Positions 3,601 through 50,027 of a stretch of DNA of 64,000 nt are shown piece after piece (the stretch's first letter is position 1; every line of letters begins with the position of its first letter). The DNA is from Idiomarina aquatica (GTDB taxonomy: Bacteria > Pseudomonadota > Gammaproteobacteria > Enterobacterales > Alteromonadaceae), in the NCBI RefSeq assembly GCF_004362895.1, contig NZ_SNXI01000016.1:1-64000 (forward strand), given 5' to 3'. The position numbers and the translations under genes were made by a program. The notes under the pieces are model-generated. The model was not told the DNA's origin, searched no databases, and saw only the letters and a list, made by a program, of their open reading frames with translations.

Positions 3601-4227
3601 CAACGTCAGCGACGTGTTTAACTGGTGTTTAAACGGAAAGCTTAAGTCAGCCTGCGCGTCAGCACTTATCGACGCATATTGATGTTGCAGCTGTAATGAG
3701 CGCAGCGTCAGTTGGCCGCTTTGTAATACCTTTAAACTGGCTGTTGCGGCAAACTGCTGCTGTGGCAATTGATTAATAAAAAACCAGCTTTGACGGAGTT
3801 CAAACGCCTTCAAATCAATAGCGATTGGTAATGATGTCGATATTGAATCAAGCGATGATGGAGAATTGTCATCGGCAGCTGTCTGTCCCTGCCTGATTCT
3901 AATTTCACCACTACCCAGCGTCAGGTTTTCAATAACCAAGCTGGAGTCTAATAACGACCATGGCTGCCAGGCTACGCTAACGGAGTCAAAAGAGGCCGAA
4001 AAAACGGCGCTGTCGATCCGTAATTGGTCAAACGCAAAGCGGTCGGCCAAGCGCCCGTCAAAACGCGAAAAGTTGACTGTTTCGGGTAACCAGGTTTTTG
4101 CCGTATTGACCAGCCATTGACTGCCGGAGGAGCTATAAATTAGCCCCAACAATACGCTCGGCAAAACAATAAATAGCAGCACTGCCAAGCTTAGGATAAC
4201 GTATGCGAACAGGCGATAGAAACTCAT
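673..4227 (-). CDS. tamB: Translocation and assembly module inner-membrane subunit TamB
   Basis: A 1184-residue protein with one N-terminal membrane anchor (about residues 8-31) followed by a long beta-rich, low-complexity periplasmic region, as in TamB (E. coli form about 1259 residues). The C-terminal DUF490/TamB domain is recognisable by the GEGEIGVKTGTYEVYGQ stretch, the GGPIGNPSLNLQ segment, VLSYLMFGR and the final RYQLTDHLWLESTS strand. TamB spans the periplasm and works with TamA in outer-membrane protein assembly and lipid transport. Its start codon overlaps the tamA stop by 4 bases, so translation is coupled. Only 13 bases separate its end from the end of cdd, with no clear terminator in between. 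Confidence 0.95.
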   Translation of the reverse strand: MSFYRLFAYVILSLAVLLFIVLPSVLLGLIYSSSGSQWLVNTAKTWLPETVNFSRFDGRLADRFAFDQLRIDSAVFSASFDSVSVAWQPWSLLDSSLVIENLTLGSGEIRIRQGQTAADDNSPSSLDSISTSLPIAIDLKAFELRQSWFFINQLPQQQFAATASLKVLQSGQLTLRSLQLQHQYASISADAQADLSFPFKHQLNTSLTLHSPDYPGTRLKLNSSGDMKNLQGQFDVRDSANINGSFSLKDVLQQASWQADLSINDTTLNDWLSAFAINGLEPLRLDGNVNLTGDAAQRVQIIPDLDVVYAAQDATMTGNITLEGQQVTLKSVTLASPERGELSINGRVDDLASPFIDLTASLKQVLYEQTQTTGKIALTGPLDRLEISTSTETQIEKPQSATINAKTKALLESSQLTLETIRITDTLTEGEISGSAKINWQQQIQVNANINGELLGKPFSLLTDVQYNTPYVDVSALELNWQTAHLSAKGRLSPGSKVSVKLDITDLAGLPLPLDASGELKLNADIEGDISSLWLDMKLNSKQLVVADTEFSNLALQLTGAPDNHDLTASLTAFSTDWQLRTRNKLADTSVSIELKEWQVDHESLEPFSLKKATAIRYNWQSSDLNISDLCLQQTGENGAACVAAQSDNGATELTSTISGLNLSLLNPFISNAPVTIEGRLTADSTASWNWQQNKLNDVDVNTSVEKLKLSGLDESITFDEFSVSLAPNEDRFEARLLATANEIDLSTKGALQLDSLSAGSSLTGSLESRLGDLGLLEVLSPAIASAKGDIKANLGLSGTLNSIQVMPNINANINELVLAETATAISDTQISLAATDASNNTFRLDADGMVGSGKFNLSGEFDVNSQQLKAQLNGQQLQLIDTPKLAVTVTPDIKVTLKDNRLSVTGDVIVPEAEITPPQLSNVQRSSSDVVIKQQQQPKGRALETFADISLTLGDKVNVDAYGFQGQLQGKLNIKQKNTGVARGEGEIGVKTGTYEVYGQELIIERGQLVYNGGPIGNPSLNLQVVRNLPKTTGNPERVGARVQGTLQEPTLDLFSNPPMPDASVLSYLMFGRAPNSPSESSNLELQAALLLTGDMTDSFTQGLKDTFGFDEVAIDSATSDVNDTSLYIGKYLTPRLYIKYGIGLVESTSSFFLRYQLTDHLWLESTSSTESQGGDLIYSIEK

Positions 4228-5987
4228 AGATCAGGGCCTAAGGTAAAGTGAATGCGCCATGGGTTGCCCGGTTCATCGATCGCCTGGGCAAAATCAAGAC
4301 GGATAGCACCAACCGGAGATATCCACCGAAAGCCTAAGCCAACCGACTGTTTTAAAGCTTTATTAGGCTCAATCATGGTGTTACCTACATCGGTAAATAT
4401 CGCAACCCGCCAATTGCTGGCAAATTGATAGTCCAATTCGGCACTGGCCACGGCTAGATATTTGCCCCCAATAACGGCTCCGGTTTCGTCTTTTGGACCG
4501 AGTTGTTCATAGGCATAACCGCGCACACTATTGTCGCCACCGGCGAAGAATCGGAGTGTCGGCGGTAACAGCTCGAAAGTATCGGTGTAAGAGGCACCGA
4601 TTTCGATACGGTTCAGTAGCCGCCACCGAGACCCTAGTGACCACACTGATTTAAGTTCGGCATAGCCCTGAATAACATCGGTTTCTGACAACATCGATTC
4701 GCTGGCACCGCGCAACCCCAGCGCTAACCGCCAGCCATTGTTTACGTTAATACGATCATCGGCTTGTAGATAGCGCCACTCGAGTGCCGGAACCAAAAAG
4801 TTAGACTGAGTGCGTTGCTCGCCAAGGGTAAAATCTTCGCGCAACAAACTCAGCCGATATTCTCGTTGCCACCTGTCATAACTGAACACGTCAACAGCCG
4901 CAACTTTGTAGAGCCTGCTATCGAGGCTGTCGTTTTCGCGGTCGCTAACTTCCGCGCGGTATTGCCGGTAATCAGATTGTGGCTTTAAGCCCGGAATTTG
5001 ATAAACGGCGGTCGCCTGGCTTTCGTATTGTGCAAGCTGTACCAGCGAGCGAAACTGATGTCCATAGTCGTTAACCCAGCGGCGTTCGATACCGGCGGTA
5101 ACACGAGCGCCGGTATCCGTGCCATAACCAACACCAAAGCGATACTGTGTGCGTTCGTTAGGCTCTGTGGCAACGCTAACCGGCACTTGTTGATCATCAT
5201 TGGCTTGTTGCCAGTCGCCACTAACAGTAACCTGCGAGAAATAATCACTGTTGGATAAATCAACTTGCAACCGGCTTAAACTTGAATTCAAAAAAGGATC
5301 GCCCGGTTTAAAGCGAGCATAGCGTTTTAGTAAATCTGCGTTTAAATGGCTGTCTGTTACCGTTAACTCACCAACGTAATAGCGCGGGCCTGTATCAAAC
5401 CTGACATCAACCTCGGCTTCTAAAGTTTCAGTGTCGACGGTGACTGTTGAATGCTTGAAACTGGCATCCTGATAGCCTAACTGAATAGCCTGGCTCAGGA
5501 GTGCTGACTTCAGTGACTCGTAGCGGCTATGGACGAAGCGAACACCTCGCTGTAGCGGGGACTTAGCTATCAACTGTGTCAGCGCCGAGTTGTCTGCGCC
5601 TTGGCCAACAATAAGCCACTGGTTCTGAGTAACACGTACGGGATTGTTTAAGGTGATTTGGTAGTCGGCGCGCCATGCACCTGCTTCGATTGACTGCAAT
5701 TCACTACTTACGCCGACACTGTAATACCCAAACGGCTGCAAAGCTTGTTTTATTTCTTTTGCTGCCTGACGGTGCAAGTAACGAATTTGGTAGTTTACAT
5801 AGTCTCTGTTACTGTCTAAATTAGCGATCTGTAAGTACGCTTTGACATTATTAAGCAGTTCGCCTTCGACACCACTGATACGGACATCAACACGGGTTGA
5901 TGCACTAGCAGATACTGACAGTGAGAGGGTTATTAACAACAAAGCGGGGATTAACCCAAGTGTTAATCGTCTGGCCAGTGCTATCAT
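4224..5987 (-). CDS. tamA: Outer-membrane assembly protein TamA (Omp85 family)
   Basis: A BamA-like outer-membrane protein of 587 residues from the chosen start (E. coli TamA is 577). It opens with a signal peptide (LTLGLIPALLLITLSLSVSA), continues with three POTRA-type repeats to about residue 260, and ends with a beta-barrel containing the Omp85 FFAGGDNSVRGYAYEQLGP signature. An in-frame GTG at 6056 and an ATG at 6017 lie upstream, but ATG 5987 is preferred: GGAG lies 11 bases upstream and the signal peptide then begins naturally. It is translationally coupled to tamB (4-base overlap). The gene diverges from the HDOD gene, so promoters for both must lie around 5988-6068. Confidence 0.94.
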   Translation of the reverse strand: MIALARRLTLGLIPALLLITLSLSVSASASTRVDVRISGVEGELLNNVKAYLQIANLDSNRDYVNYQIRYLHRQAAKEIKQALQPFGYYSVGVSSELQSIEAGAWRADYQITLNNPVRVTQNQWLIVGQGADNSALTQLIAKSPLQRGVRFVHSRYESLKSALLSQAIQLGYQDASFKHSTVTVDTETLEAEVDVRFDTGPRYYVGELTVTDSHLNADLLKRYARFKPGDPFLNSSLSRLQVDLSNSDYFSQVTVSGDWQQANDDQQVPVSVATEPNERTQYRFGVGYGTDTGARVTAGIERRWVNDYGHQFRSLVQLAQYESQATAVYQIPGLKPQSDYRQYRAEVSDRENDSLDSRLYKVAAVDVFSYDRWQREYRLSLLREDFTLGEQRTQSNFLVPALEWRYLQADDRINVNNGWRLALGLRGASESMLSETDVIQGYAELKSVWSLGSRWRLLNRIEIGASYTDTFELLPPTLRFFAGGDNSVRGYAYEQLGPKDETGAVIGGKYLAVASAELDYQFASNWRVAIFTDVGNTMIEPNKALKQSVGLGFRWISPVGAIRLDFAQAIDEPGNPWRIHFTLGPDL

Positions 5988-44398: not shown

Positions 44399-46288
44399 AT
44401 GAGTTATCAGGTACTGGCACGAAAGTGGCGCCCGGCGCAATTCAACCAAGTTGTTGGCCAGACTCATGTGCTTGAACCTTTACGCCATGCCCTCGAAAAT
44501 GACCGTCTGCATCACGCGTATTTATTTACCGGAACCCGCGGTGTCGGTAAAACCACCATCGCTCGCATTCTGGCCAAAGCACTGAACTGCCAACAGGGCG
44601 TTACCTCGACACCTTGTGGTGAATGTGAAAGTTGCCTGCAAATTGACCAGGGACGCTTTGTCGATTTACTGGAAATTGACGCGGCATCGCGCACCAAAGT
44701 CGAAGACACCCGGGAACTGTTAGATAATGTCCAGTATCGGCCAACGCAGGGGCGCTTCAAAGTTTATTTGATTGACGAAGTGCACATGTTATCCCGGCAT
44801 AGTTTTAATGCGCTGTTAAAGACGCTGGAAGAGCCGCCGGAGCATGTTAAATTCCTACTGGCCACTACCGATCCGCAAAAATTGCCAATCACAGTCGTTT
44901 CCCGCTGTTTGCAGTTTAATTTAAGGGCACTGACCAGCGATCTCATCAGTGGTCAACTTGAACACGTTTTAAGCGCCGAAACCGTTCCGTATGATGCCAG
45001 GGCATTACCGTTATTAGCCCGTGCAGCGAGGGGCAGCATGCGTGATGCGCTGAGTCTTACCGATCAGGCGATAGCGCAGGGGCGTGGCCAGGTTCAGCTG
45101 GAAAGCGTGCAGCAGATGCTGGGTAACTTGCCCGTCGCTGACGTGCAGAAACTGTTGCAACACATTGTCGCAAATGATGCTAACGGCGCATTTGAGCAGC
45201 TAGAAAAAATGACTGCGTTATTGCCGGATATCAGTGTCGTTCTGACTGAATTACAAGCCTTATTACACCGTTTGGCGTTAGTTCAGCAGTTACCTGAACT
45301 AGCCAACCATGAGGAACAGTCCGCCGGCTTTAATACATTGGTACAACAAGTTCCGGCAGAGGTGGTTCAACTCTATTATCAGATCGTACTGGAAGGGCGA
45401 AAAGAGCTTCCGTACAGTGTTGACGACCGTAGCGGCGTAGAAATGACATTGTTGCGATTACTTGCATTTCGACCGACCGAGGGCTTGAATGTTGAACCAT
45501 CAGCAGACTTTGCTGCCGAGCCTACCTCATTACCAGAGCCTGTCACTAAGCCAGCGACCGCAATCGAGCCCGCGGCGGAACCAGAGCCTCAGCCGCAGCC
45601 GCAGCCGCAGCCAGAATCACAGCCAGAACTCGAACCTGGACCTGAACCCGAACCAGCGCCGCAGGCGTCAGATAATTCAGGCCTGGATGATTTGCTTAAA
45701 ACGCGGGAGCAATTGTTGCAGCAGAGCAACGACACATCGACTAGCCCGGCACCGGCAGGCGAAAAAAAAAACACCAATGAGCCATCAGCAGACGACAGTT
45801 CGCCAGATACCAAATTAACTCCTGCAACAGCCCCGGGTAACCGCGAAAAGCCCGGGAAAATGCCTGAAGCCGGCGCCGAGCTGACGCCGGATATTCGCCG
45901 CGCAGAACAGCTCGATGAATGGGCGGCGCTTATTGTCGCGACCGAAGTCACCGGTTTAGCACGGCAGTTACTGTTAAATTCTAACCTGGAAAAGATTGCT
46001 GATAATCATTGGCGAGTTGTTGTCGCGCCTGATCAACAGAGTTTATTGAGTGCTGCGACCGAGCAGACGGTTCGCGATGCACTGACTGAGGTGTTATCCA
46101 GCAATGGAAATTTTGAGTTTACGGTTGAAGAACCCCGGGTGCCGACCCCATTAATGATCCAACAACGGATTGATGCGTATCAGCATCAACTCGCGGTAGA
46201 ATGGATACATCAGAACCAAGCCGTTGCGGAGCTAAAACAACGCTTCGCGGCGGAGATAGACGACGCATCAATAACAGCGGTTTACTAA
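44399..46288 (+). CDS. dnaX: DNA polymerase III subunits tau and gamma
   Basis: A 629-residue clamp-loader ATPase (E. coli tau 643). Walker A is GTRGVGKTT near residue 43, the zinc module has CGECESC, Walker B is VYLIDEVHML near 122 and sensor 1 is LLATTDPQKLPIT. A Pro/Glu/Gln-rich linker runs over about residues 380-425. Tau links polymerase cores and binds the helicase. A ten-A run at codons 455-458 allows a -1 shift to a stop and hence a gamma-like form of about 460 residues. It is the first gene of dnaX-ybaB-recR. Confidence 0.97.
   Translation: MSYQVLARKWRPAQFNQVVGQTHVLEPLRHALENDRLHHAYLFTGTRGVGKTTIARILAKALNCQQGVTSTPCGECESCLQIDQGRFVDLLEIDAASRTKVEDTRELLDNVQYRPTQGRFKVYLIDEVHMLSRHSFNALLKTLEEPPEHVKFLLATTDPQKLPITVVSRCLQFNLRALTSDLISGQLEHVLSAETVPYDARALPLLARAARGSMRDALSLTDQAIAQGRGQVQLESVQQMLGNLPVADVQKLLQHIVANDANGAFEQLEKMTALLPDISVVLTELQALLHRLALVQQLPELANHEEQSAGFNTLVQQVPAEVVQLYYQIVLEGRKELPYSVDDRSGVEMTLLRLLAFRPTEGLNVEPSADFAAEPTSLPEPVTKPATAIEPAAEPEPQPQPQPQPESQPELEPGPEPEPAPQASDNSGLDDLLKTREQLLQQSNDTSTSPAPAGEKKNTNEPSADDSSPDTKLTPATAPGNREKPGKMPEAGAELTPDIRRAEQLDEWAALIVATEVTGLARQLLLNSNLEKIADNHWRVVVAPDQQSLLSAATEQTVRDALTEVLSSNGNFEFTVEEPRVPTPLMIQQRIDAYQHQLAVEWIHQNQAVAELKQRFAAEIDDASITAVY
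45762..45780 (+). other. Slippery A10 run with -1 stop in dnaX
   Basis: Ten consecutive A (45762-45771) read as GAA AAA AAA AAC in frame. After a -1 slip the next codons are AAA CAC CAA TGA (stop at 45778-45780), so the product ends within 3 codons. A purine AGGC precedes the run. The effect could be ribosomal frameshifting or RNA polymerase slippage on the A run. Confidence 0.75.
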
Positions 46289-46300
46289 GAGGAAATTACA

Positions 46301-46627
46301 ATGTTTAAAGGTGGTATGGGTAATATGATGAAGCAGGCGCAGCAAATGCAGGAGCGCATGCAACAAGCCCAGGAAGAAATCGCTAACATGGAAGTCACCG
46401 GTGAAGCGGGCGCAGGGTTAGTTAAGATAACTATGTTGGGCAACCATAATGTTAAGCGGGTCTCAATTGATCCAAGCTTGATGGATGACGATCAGGAAAT
46501 GCTGGAAGACTTAATCGCTGCAGCAACCAATGATGCGGTCCGTCGCGTTGAAGAAACCAGTAAAGAAAAAATGGGTGATGTTACCGGCGGTATGGGATTA
46601 CCACCGGGTTTTAAAATGCCATTTTAA
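46301..46627 (+). CDS. ybaB: YbaB/EbfC nucleoid-associated protein
   Basis: A 108-residue protein (usual length 109) that binds DNA as a dimer. The N-terminal Gln/Met-rich coiled coil ([19 protein letters not shown]) and the [20 protein letters not shown] core are typical. It lies 12 bases after dnaX and 23 before recR, the conserved set whose products all act around replication and recombination. Confidence 0.96.
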
Positions 46628-46650
46628 TCGCACACGGGGTGGAGTAATAC

Positions 46651-47262
46651 ATGGCACAGGGTTTAAGTCCTGCAATTGACGCGCTTGTTGATGACCTGAA
46701 GAGGTTACCGGGCGTTGGCCAGAAAACTGCGCAGCGGATGGCCTTTTACTTGCTGGAACGCGACCGACAAGGCGCGCTGGCCTTATCCGCTAGCCTGCAG
46801 CAGGCAGCTGACCGTGTAGGTCATTGTCAGCAATGCCGAACCTTAACCGAGGAAGCTCTGTGCCGGATTTGTGCTAACCCCGCACGACGTGAGAGCGGGG
46901 TTGTCTGTATTGTCGAAACTCCTGCCGATGTATTAGCTATTGAGCAGACATCACAGTTTAAAGGGCGCTACTTTGTATTAATGGGGCACCTGTCTCCGCT
47001 CGATGGTATCGGTCCTGCAGATATCGGTCTGGATGAGCTTGAACTGCAACTCAAGCAAGGTCCGGTTGAAGAAATTATCCTGGCTACCAACCCTACCGTA
47101 GAAGGCGACGCTACGGCCCATTACATTGCCGATATTGCCGAACAGTTGGGTATAAACACCACGCGTATTGCTCACGGTGTTCCGGTGGGTGGTGAGCTGG
47201 GCTACGTGGATCAGACAACACTTGGCCATGCGTTTAGCGGGCGCAAACAATTTTCTCGATAA
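46651..47262 (+). CDS. recR: Recombination protein RecR
   Basis: A 203-residue protein (E. coli 201). A helix-hairpin-helix DNA-binding start, [20 protein letters not shown], is followed by a four-cysteine zinc finger ([16 protein letters not shown], then the last Cys further on) and a Toprim domain with [11 protein letters not shown] near residue 88. With RecF/RecO it loads RecA onto gapped DNA. It ends the dnaX operon; the gap to htpG carries the heat-shock promoter. Confidence 0.97.
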
Positions 47263-47279
47263 ATCAGCACAGGTAAGTG

Positions 47280-47305
47280 CTTGAAATTCTCCTATCGATC
47301 CCCAT
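47280..47305 (+). promoter_or_regulatory. Sigma-32 heat-shock promoter of htpG
   Basis: CTTGAAA (47280-47286), a 13-base spacer and CCCCAT (47300-47305) match the sigma-32 consensus, with CTTGAAA identical and CCCCAT in full. The expected start is near 47312, leaving a leader of about 38 bases. Confidence 0.88.
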
Positions 47306-47342
47306 TTCTTAAGCATATTGGGTGAAATGAATGATAGGAGAA
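47287..47342 (+). promoter_or_regulatory. Inverted repeat that can mask the htpG ribosome-binding site
   Basis: TTCTCCTATC (47287-47296) is the exact complement of GATAGGAGAA (47333-47342), which contains the AGGAG site 10 bases before the htpG ATG. An inner stem CATTTC (47303-47308)/GAAATG (47324-47329) extends it. The left arm lies upstream of the sigma-32 start, so only RNA coming from recR could form this hairpin. Confidence 0.7.
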
Positions 47343-47349
47343 CATCACT

Positions 47350-49263
47350 ATGGCGGAAGCCGGTCAAACTGAAAAGCATGGATTTCAGACAGAAGTAAAG
47401 CAACTGCTGCACTTGATGATCCACTCGCTTTATTCTAATAAAGAAATCTTTTTACGGGAACTGGTCTCTAACGCCTCAGATGCGGCAGATAAGCTGCGTT
47501 TTAAAGCGTTAAGCGACAACTCGCTGTATGGCGATGACAGCGAATTGCATGTGCGCGTCTCGGTTGATAAAGAAGCCCGTACTATCACCATTAGTGACAA
47601 CGGTATCGGTATGACCCGTGACGAAGTCATGAATAACCTGGGTACTATCGCTAAATCCGGCACCGCTGAATTTTTCGGCCAACTTTCTGGTGATCAGGCT
47701 AAAGACAGCCAGCTAATCGGTCAGTTTGGCGTGGGCTTTTATTCAGCCTTTATCGTTGCCGAAGAAGTGACAGTGCGTACTCGTTCAGCGCTGGAAAAAG
47801 GCAGTGTTGGGGTACAATGGCACTCAAAAGGTGACGGCGAATTTGAGTTAGGCGAGACCGAGAAAGCCCGTCGTGGTACCGATATCATCCTGACGTTAAA
47901 AGAAGGTGAGGATGAATTTTTAGATGACTTCCGCCTGCGCGGTATCATCAATAAGTACTCTGAGCACTTAAGTATTCCGGTACAAATGTGGAAAGAACCG
48001 GTCCCTGAACAAGAAAACGAAGACGGTGAAAAGACACCGGCAGAACCGGGCCAATGGGAAACCGTTAACTCGGGCAAAGCGTTATGGACGCGCGATAAAG
48101 CTGACATCAGCGATGACGAATACAAGGAGTTTTACAAGACGGTTGCTCACGATTTTGATGATCCGCTGTTGTGGAGCCACAATAAAGTCGAAGGTACTAC
48201 TGAGTATACCAGCCTGTTGTACATCCCTAAGCGTGCGCCATGGGATCTGTGGAATCGTGAACAGCAACACGGTGTAAAACTGTACGTAAAACGCGTCTTT
48301 ATTATGGATGATGCGGAACAGTTAATGCCGACTTACCTGCGTTTTGTAAAAGGTTTAATCGACACCAACGACTTGCCACTTAACGTGTCGCGGGAAATTC
48401 TGCAGGACAATAAAGTGACCCGCGCGATGCGCAACGGTAGCACCAAGAAAGTGTTGCAGATGCTGAAAAAACTGGCCAAAGATGACAGCGAGCAGTATCA
48501 GCAATTCTGGGATACTTTCGGTAACGTCCTAAAAGAAGGTCCGGCTGAAGATAGCGGCAACCGTGAGCGAATTGCTGAATTGTTGCGGTTTGCTTCAACC
48601 CATGGCGATTCTTCTGCGCAGACAGTCAGCCTGGATGATTATCTTGAGCGCATGAAGGAAGGCCAGGACAAGATTTACTATATTGTTGCGGATAGCTACG
48701 AAGCAGCGAAAAACAACCCGGCGCTGGAAATATTCCGTAAAAAAGGCGTTGAAGTGCTGCTGTTGTCAGATCGCATCGACGAATGGTTAATGAGTCATTT
48801 AACTGAGTTTAAAGAAAAACAACTTCAGTCTGTGACCCGCGGCGACCTGGACTTGGGTGAGCTTGATGACGAACAAGACAAACAAGAGCAGGAAAAAGCC
48901 GAAGAGGCGTTTAAAGATCAGCTTAAACGGTTCGAAACTGCCTTAGGCGATAAAGTTAAAAAGGTGCGTGTAACACACCGCTTAACCGATTCGCCAGCGT
49001 GTATTATTACTGATGAACACGATATGAGCACGCAAATGGCTAAGCTGATGGAAGCAGCGGGTCAGCAGGTGCCCGAAACCAAATACATCTTAGAGGTTAA
49101 TCCAAGTCATCCTTTAGTCGTAAAAGTGACTGAAAAAGACGACGATGTATTTAAGCAGTGGGCAGAGGTTCTGCTCGACCAGGCAACCCTTGCGGAACGC
49201 GGTAGCCTTAAGGATCCCGCGTCATTTGTCAGTAAGCTAAACCGCTTGATGCTGGACGCTTAA
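47350..49263 (+). CDS. htpG: Molecular chaperone HtpG (Hsp90)
   Basis: A 637-residue Hsp90 (E. coli 624). The ATP-binding domain includes [17 protein letters not shown] (Glu and Asn of the ATPase), DNGIGM near residue 81 and [11 protein letters not shown] near 123. The middle domain has [11 protein letters not shown] with the catalytic Arg, and the C-terminal dimerisation domain follows. A dedicated sigma-32 promoter precedes it. It remodels client proteins with DnaK in heat stress. Confidence 0.98.
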
Positions 49264-49274
49264 ACATACTGACA

Positions 49275-49301
49275 CCGTGGCAGTTCGGACCACTGCCACG
49301 G
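49275..49301 (+). terminator. Hairpin after htpG
   Basis: CCGTGGCAGT (49275-49284) pairs perfectly with ACTGCCACGG (49292-49301) around a 7-base loop. It is placed 12 bases after the htpG stop and is strong, but only CCCTTCT follows, so it is an imperfect terminator or an mRNA-protecting stem. Confidence 0.6.
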
Positions 49302-49364
49302 CCCTTCTGGCTTGTAAAAACGCCCTCATCGGGGTAAAGTTCCGAACAAACTTTTTCAAATTAA

Positions 49365-50027
<663 letters not shown>

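Follow-up and report, generated by a model that had tools for sequence, protein, structure and literature searches.

The recR-htpG junction

The region examined is the junction between recR and the chaperone gene htpG in Idiomarina aquatica, in which the htpG promoter may also, once transcribed, mask the ribosome-binding site of htpG. The junction lies in a 64,000-nucleotide stretch of contig NZ_SNXI01000016.1 (positions 1 to 64,000), which as a whole is called the window. The gene order across the locus is dnaX, ybaB, recR, htpG and adk, the names having been assigned from the sequences. An 87-base gap separates the recR stop (47262) from the htpG start (47350), and it holds a promoter for the heat-shock factor sigma-32 together with two 10-base arms able to pair with each other. 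The features of the junction are as follows.

46651-47262, forward strand: recR, the upstream neighbour and would-be source of readthrough RNA; an open reading frame of 203 amino acids (aa), its C-terminus matched within the genus and its name assigned from sequence
47280-47285, forward strand: -35 box CTTGAA of the sigma-32 promoter, by consensus match; in the fold predicted for readthrough RNA, its TGA (47282-47284) is paired with TCA (47345-47347)
47287-47296, forward strand: left arm, TTCTCCTATC, within the promoter spacer, from sequence and predicted fold
47300-47305, forward strand: -10 box CCCCAT, by consensus match; in the fold predicted for readthrough RNA, its CCCA (47301-47304) is paired with TGGG (47319-47322)
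47312-47317, forward strand: likely sigma-32 transcription start, predicted from a spacing rule and from the first estimate of 47312
47333-47342, forward strand: right arm, GATAGGAGAA, containing the Shine-Dalgarno sequence (SD) AGGAG (47336-47340), from sequence and predicted fold
47350-49263, forward strand: htpG, 637 aa, from the open reading frame and comparison with relatives; the protein is 95% identical to an I. aquatica HtpG

The sigma-32 consensus comprises CTTGAA, a spacer of 13-15 nucleotides (nt) and CCCCAT; the htpG promoter matches it at 12 of 12 hexamer bases, with a spacer of 14 nt. The original prediction had described perfectly complementary arms, the left one between the -35 and -10 boxes of a sigma-32 promoter and the right one containing the htpG ribosome-binding site, and this description proved accurate throughout: the arms are exact reverse complements over 10 bases each, the left arm lies inside the spacer, and the SD falls within the right arm, nine bases ahead of the ATG. 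A heat-induced start would be expected about 7-12 nt past CCCCAT, and position 47315 was used as the start in the computations of SD exposure and promoter-side pairing. The end of recR lies 17 nt ahead of the -35 box, and a simple scan for terminator-like sites over 46900-47500 detected none. A review considers it probable that ybaB and recR of E. coli form a single transcription unit, with htpG adjoining (PMC9610160).

RNA spanning 47263-47380, as readthrough from recR would produce, has a predicted fold of -31.6 kcal/mol in which the two arms pair (z -2.0; equalled by 4 of 200 shuffled sequences). One G-U pair (47297/47332) lengthens the 10-base-pair (bp) stem, and the predicted fold extends beyond the stem first described, as parts of the -35 and -10 boxes pair too. 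RNA spanning 47312-47380, the predicted heat-shock transcript, folded without that helix (z 0.3). In the predicted ensembles for this genome, the SD had a probability of 0.00 of being unpaired when the RNA was long, against 0.57 for the short RNA.

The promoter may accordingly be viewed as having a second role, that of an RNA strand shutting off the ribosome-binding site of htpG. RNA entering from recR would carry the promoter sequence, fold back on the SD and start region, and be translated poorly or not at all. RNA started by sigma-32 would begin downstream of the promoter strand, leaving the SD more open to translation. The purpose of such an arrangement would be to tie chaperone synthesis to sigma-32 despite the housekeeping operon directly upstream. 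Readthrough, the position of the start, translational silencing and this purpose are what we infer; the explanation as a whole, in which the promoter strand masks the htpG SD in readthrough RNA only, is given a probability of about 0.6.

Taken by itself, the stem appears to be a modest oddity. No other inverted pair of 10-mers with a loop of 20-60 nt exists in the window, and about 2.5 such pairs would be expected in random sequence by simple arithmetic, so its length alone is unremarkable. When the promoter was shuffled with its hexamers kept, promoter and ribosome site formed a stem of 10 bp or more in 22 of 20,000 shuffles. What might have been a curiosity of one sequence is strengthened by comparison across genomes.

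Co-adaptation of promoter and ribosome site

The htpG leaders of 19 Idiomarina genomes were compared, representing about six lineages by eye and not 19 independent events. In the predicted folds of all 19, the stretch from SD to ATG paired much more with the promoter side (0.43-0.71) than with leader or coding sequence (0.00-0.19), and in all 19 the -35 box lay 0-17 nt from the end of recR. The paired bases vary between lineages though the promoter-side pairing stays. The SD surroundings are variously GATAGGAG, GCAGGAG, GTAGGAG and GTAAGGAG, and the partner of the SD region is TCTCCTGC in loci L008-L012, CCTAC in L013 and L015-L017, and TTTCCTGC, with one G-U pair, in L014; in L007, CCATAGTGT pairs with ACACTATGG, over the start codon. 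The exact stem is reduced to 7 bp in L002 and to 6 bp plus a bulged part in L003, and other arms are found in L004-L007, L018 and L019. Retention of the complementarity in close relatives, on which the original prediction had staked its case, was thus not seen for the exact 10-bp stem and was seen for the structure. Upstream of htpG in L018 there is also a 12-bp helix (TTACATTGATAA / TTATCAATGTAA) between the -10 box and the SD, just before the SD, that is unlike anything in the other Idiomarina.

The duplex formed between each promoter and its own ribosome site was also compared with duplexes formed with partners from other heat-shock genes. For htpG in Idiomarina, the mean was -16.4 kcal/mol for own partners and -7.9 kcal/mol for the others. 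The clpB (-11.9 vs -7.3) and groES (-12.4 vs -8.1) promoters were intermediate, and those of grpE (-6.9 vs -7.6) and dnaK (-6.1 vs -7.5) showed no excess. Against shuffled promoters, p ≤ 0.05 was reached at 14 of 19 htpG loci, 11 of 18 for clpB, 4 of 10 for groES, 1 of 18 for dnaK and 0 of 19 for grpE (usable loci were 10 of 19 for groES, 18 of 19 for dnaK, and 18 for clpB, or 17 in the whole-fold measure described below). Relative to shuffles, the sense strand outpaired the antisense strand at 19 of 19 htpG loci, which speaks for RNA.

Across the Alteromonadaceae, own pairing was compared with pairing swapped between genera, using one locus per genus; the swapped promoters keep the same boxes. 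For htpG, 141 genomes outside the genus had a match and 100 of them were taken in; 112 of 119 loci (19 from the genus, 100 from the family) passed the promoter threshold. For the other genes, 27 of 29 clpB loci (L343 had no start and L348 no promoter), 27 of 30 grpE loci and 27 of 29 dnaK loci were kept. Start codons of htpG, clpB and dnaK were set by differing rules, those of grpE and dnaK were checked by eye, and the leaders of L020-L099 were read by eye only.

The htpG promoters paired more strongly with the ribosome site of their own locus than with sites taken from other genera (-11.2 vs -9.2 kcal/mol; p = 5e-5 with n = 50, the lowest value that 20,000 permutations allow). The result was the same without Idiomarina (n = 49, p = 5e-5), and five random draws of genus representatives each gave p = 0.0002 (the floor of 5,000). 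Own pairs also exceeded swapped pairs for clpB (n = 27, p = 5e-5), and no such excess was found across genera for grpE (n = 27, p = 0.38) or dnaK (n = 27, p = 0.73). Reversed promoters gave no excess (p = 0.21 for htpG, 0.24 for clpB), nor did the 45 nt upstream of the -35 box (0.50 and 0.76) or the transcribed leader (0.53 for htpG, n = 43; 0.67 for clpB, for which only 3 loci had enough leader). The htpG signal is therefore limited to the stretch from the -35 box to the predicted start. Its bulk, as for clpB, lies in the -10 and discriminator part (p = 0.001 for htpG, 5e-5 for clpB). With the promoter cut directly after CCCCAT, the excess was still found (p = 0.004 for htpG, 0.007 for clpB), so a start misplaced by some bases would not abolish the result.

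These observations bear on two claims of the original prediction. Co-variation of the arms, suggested there as a check, took the form of conserved structure and of co-adaptation, the latter seen in 50 genera for htpG and in 27 for clpB, and not of conservation of the same bases. The promoter-dependent translation switch proposed there is consistent in its architecture with the 19 Idiomarina folds and with co-adaptation in DNA that the heat-shock transcript should lack; it is not particular to this species.

Among individual family loci, the -10 box and discriminator upstream of htpG pair with the SD or start region in L195 (-24 kcal/mol) and in L170 (ATATCTGAAACA with TGTTTCAGAT). The motif TTCTCC was considered as a generic sigma-32 spacer motif and rejected, as the grpE promoters inspected do not carry it.

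Gene context and alternative explanations

The heat-shock genes differ in what precedes them. In this genome, the clpB region holds an rluD-like gene and yfiH-like frames (names assigned from sequence), and the longest close upstream frame ran in the same direction in 27 of 27 clpB loci by a crude count. In this genome, grpE is divergent from nadK (name assigned), and dnaK follows grpE, itself a heat-shock gene; at 18 of 28 grpE loci, the longest upstream frame lay on the opposite strand. For hslV, a prediction was fixed beforehand, namely that an excess at p < 0.05 would be found if a same-direction non-heat-shock gene precedes it; 29 of 30 loci were kept (L469 had no promoter), and 28 of the 29 had a same-strand upstream frame of at least 90 aa, a candidate for such a neighbour. 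It is an even bet that sigma-32 promoters of the Alteromonadaceae are built-in translational insulators wherever a housekeeping gene in the same orientation precedes the heat-shock gene (htpG, clpB, hslV). The promoter bases would then be under a second selection, to close their own ribosome site in readthrough RNA, and one promoter would work twice, in DNA and in RNA.

Side observations were made in the neighbouring genes. The yfiH-like gene upstream of clpB in this genome's own clpB locus (L263, about 3984-4754) is in two reading frames, possibly through a frameshift or a sequencing error. In dnaX, a run of ten A lies at window positions 45762-45771, between the parts encoding the N-terminal and C-terminal portions; in other bacteria, A-runs in dnaX are slippage sites that yield the short subunit. 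The DnaX protein also has a Pro/Gln/Glu-rich repeat (EPQPQPQPQPESQPELEPGPEPEPAP), encoded at about 45575-45665 of the window.

A number of results weigh against masking by the promoter strand, or against its extension to other genes. Outside the family there was no htpG excess: in the order-level set, with 37 of 40 loci kept from 21 families, the mean rank was 0.461 (standard error 0.063) against an expected 0.5. Within Idiomarina, the SD of L004-L007 and L018 is about 0.40-0.44 unpaired in the long RNA, and when promoter-side pairing was taken from the whole fold and set against that of shuffled promoters, a stricter measure, p ≤ 0.05 was reached at only 6 of 19 htpG loci (clpB 4 of 17, groES 3 of 10, dnaK 1 of 18, grpE 0 of 19). 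Across genera, the -35 and spacer part, where the left arm of this window lies, was not significant alone (p = 0.35 for htpG, 0.13 for clpB), antisense duplexes were significant too (p = 5e-5 for htpG, 0.00045 for clpB), and grpE had an unexplained excess on the antisense strand only (p = 0.009). The SD was nearly as closed by foreign promoters as by its own (unpaired probability 0.256 and 0.213 over 50 genera, p = 0.039; 0.492 in the short RNA), because the C run of any sigma-32 promoter tends to close an SD once transcribed; for that reason, SD exposure was rejected as a sole measure. Within the family, pairing had no link to recR distance (p = 0.46) and tracked terminator absence weakly (p = 0.074, 8 vs 42 genera). 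The groES gene, divergent from a cutA-like gene (name assigned) here and yet intermediate in pairing, fits the context rule poorly. Finally, the first hslV run gave p = 0.081 and missed its preset threshold; p = 0.0056 was obtained post hoc with corrected starts, 6 of the 29 having sat on a TTG in the SD region.

At Enterobacteriaceae-type htpG loci (L089, L093-L097, L367, L369 and L370), CCTCAAC just past the -10 box is complementary to the SD GTTGAGG, and this arm straddles the likely start. Upstream of htpG in L093-L097 and L099, a strong hairpin was seen by eye immediately before the -35 box, perhaps another curb on recR readthrough.

An unlikely explanation, with some points in its favour, is that the helix belongs to the upstream mRNA (recR, yfiH) as a 3'-end or processing structure, guarding that mRNA from decay or marking a cut, with SD closure a by-product. 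The helix would indeed form in the upstream gene's RNA, 0-17 nt past recR in Idiomarina, and the separate hairpin of some Enterobacteriaceae loci could be read in the same way. The partners are, however, specifically the promoter and the ribosome site, and neither the upstream 45 nt nor the htpG leader shows co-adaptation; such protection would be needed for dnaK as well, which lies behind grpE, and none is seen there.

It is also possible that C-rich sigma-32 promoters and G-rich SDs pair in any readthrough RNA through composition, with no selection involved. Closure of the SD by foreign promoters is what this coincidence would give, and the p of about 0.001 for the 10-bp stem alone applies to one among many noticeable places. 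Composition is nevertheless disfavoured and seems quite improbable, since own promoters beat swapped ones that have the same boxes, reversed promoters fail, and grpE and dnaK show no excess in the same pipeline.

In the ROSE and FourU RNA thermometers, a helix in the heat-shock leader closes the SD, and the heat-shock mRNA itself carries it. The htpG helix would be of this kind if the true sigma-32 start lay farther upstream, so that the heat-shock mRNA carried the helix and it melted with heat; that most of the across-genus signal is in the -10 and discriminator part, near the start, fits this. The left arm here, however, lies between the -35 and -10 boxes, where transcription from that promoter cannot include it. 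The heat-shock mRNA, given the predicted start, lacks this arm and does not hide the SD, and the signal remains with the promoter cut at CCCCAT. An Rfam scan of 46000-49700 at gathering scores matched no family, thermometers included, and a thermometer appears very unlikely. That the arms are half-sites of a DNA-binding regulator, as the antisense duplexes might suggest, is least credible of all, given that arm sequence, register and spacing vary between lineages of one genus, unlike an operator, and that the sense strand was better at every Idiomarina htpG locus.

Known systems and implications

Masking of a ribosome site in long transcripts has precedents. In phage T4, long upstream transcripts of the lysozyme gene e fold the SD shut, and transcripts from the proximal promoter lack the 5' strand of the hairpin and are translated; as described in a review (PMC3014915), the architecture is as proposed here, with 100-fold silencing proven by experiment, and it serves lysis timing from phage late promoters. 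Similarly, the leaders of I-TevI, segB and phage Aeh1 mobE form an SD-closing hairpin in early or middle transcripts, and the promoter is placed so that part of this hairpin is missing from late ones (PMC2988022). The promoter placement is like that of htpG, and these are phage homing endonuclease genes without a heat-shock regulon. At the htpG locus, the promoter is a bacterial sigma-32 promoter and the masking is by prediction. As in gene e, the SD is in a helix within the long transcript in the predicted fold, the proximal promoter is sited so that its transcript, from the predicted start, lacks the 5' strand, and the arrangement is kept in relatives (the 19 Idiomarina folds and the co-adaptation over 50 genera) with the bases changed.

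In IS10 and IS50, RNA from outside folds over the transposase ribosome site and RNA from the inner promoter does not; there the arms come from the transposon ends, whereas those of htpG come from promoter elements. Yeast long undecoded transcript isoforms share the unproductive longer transcript, in that the isoform from the upstream promoter is not productively translated, but these are eukaryotic and depend on upstream open reading frames and chromatin. No sigma-32 or chromosomal heat-shock example of such masking was recognised in searches of an open-access library, judged by titles and the starts of abstracts. By analogy, the mechanism would be one already known in phages, and what appears new is its use by stress genes of bacteria, where promoter elements supply the arms and separate lineages have evolved them anew.

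The tendency of C-rich sigma-32 promoters to close SDs offers a possible starting point for insulators. It suggests that readthrough RNA of sigma-32 genes is partly closed to begin with and that selection then improves the closure.

If masking by the promoter strand is true, bacterial promoters can have a concealed role as RNA, protecting stress genes against leaky neighbours with no need of a terminator. This would account for a chaperone gene that lies only tens of bases past a housekeeping operon and yet answers to sigma-32 alone, and counts of readthrough RNA would not predict protein. The sequence test for such insulators would then be usable in any genome.
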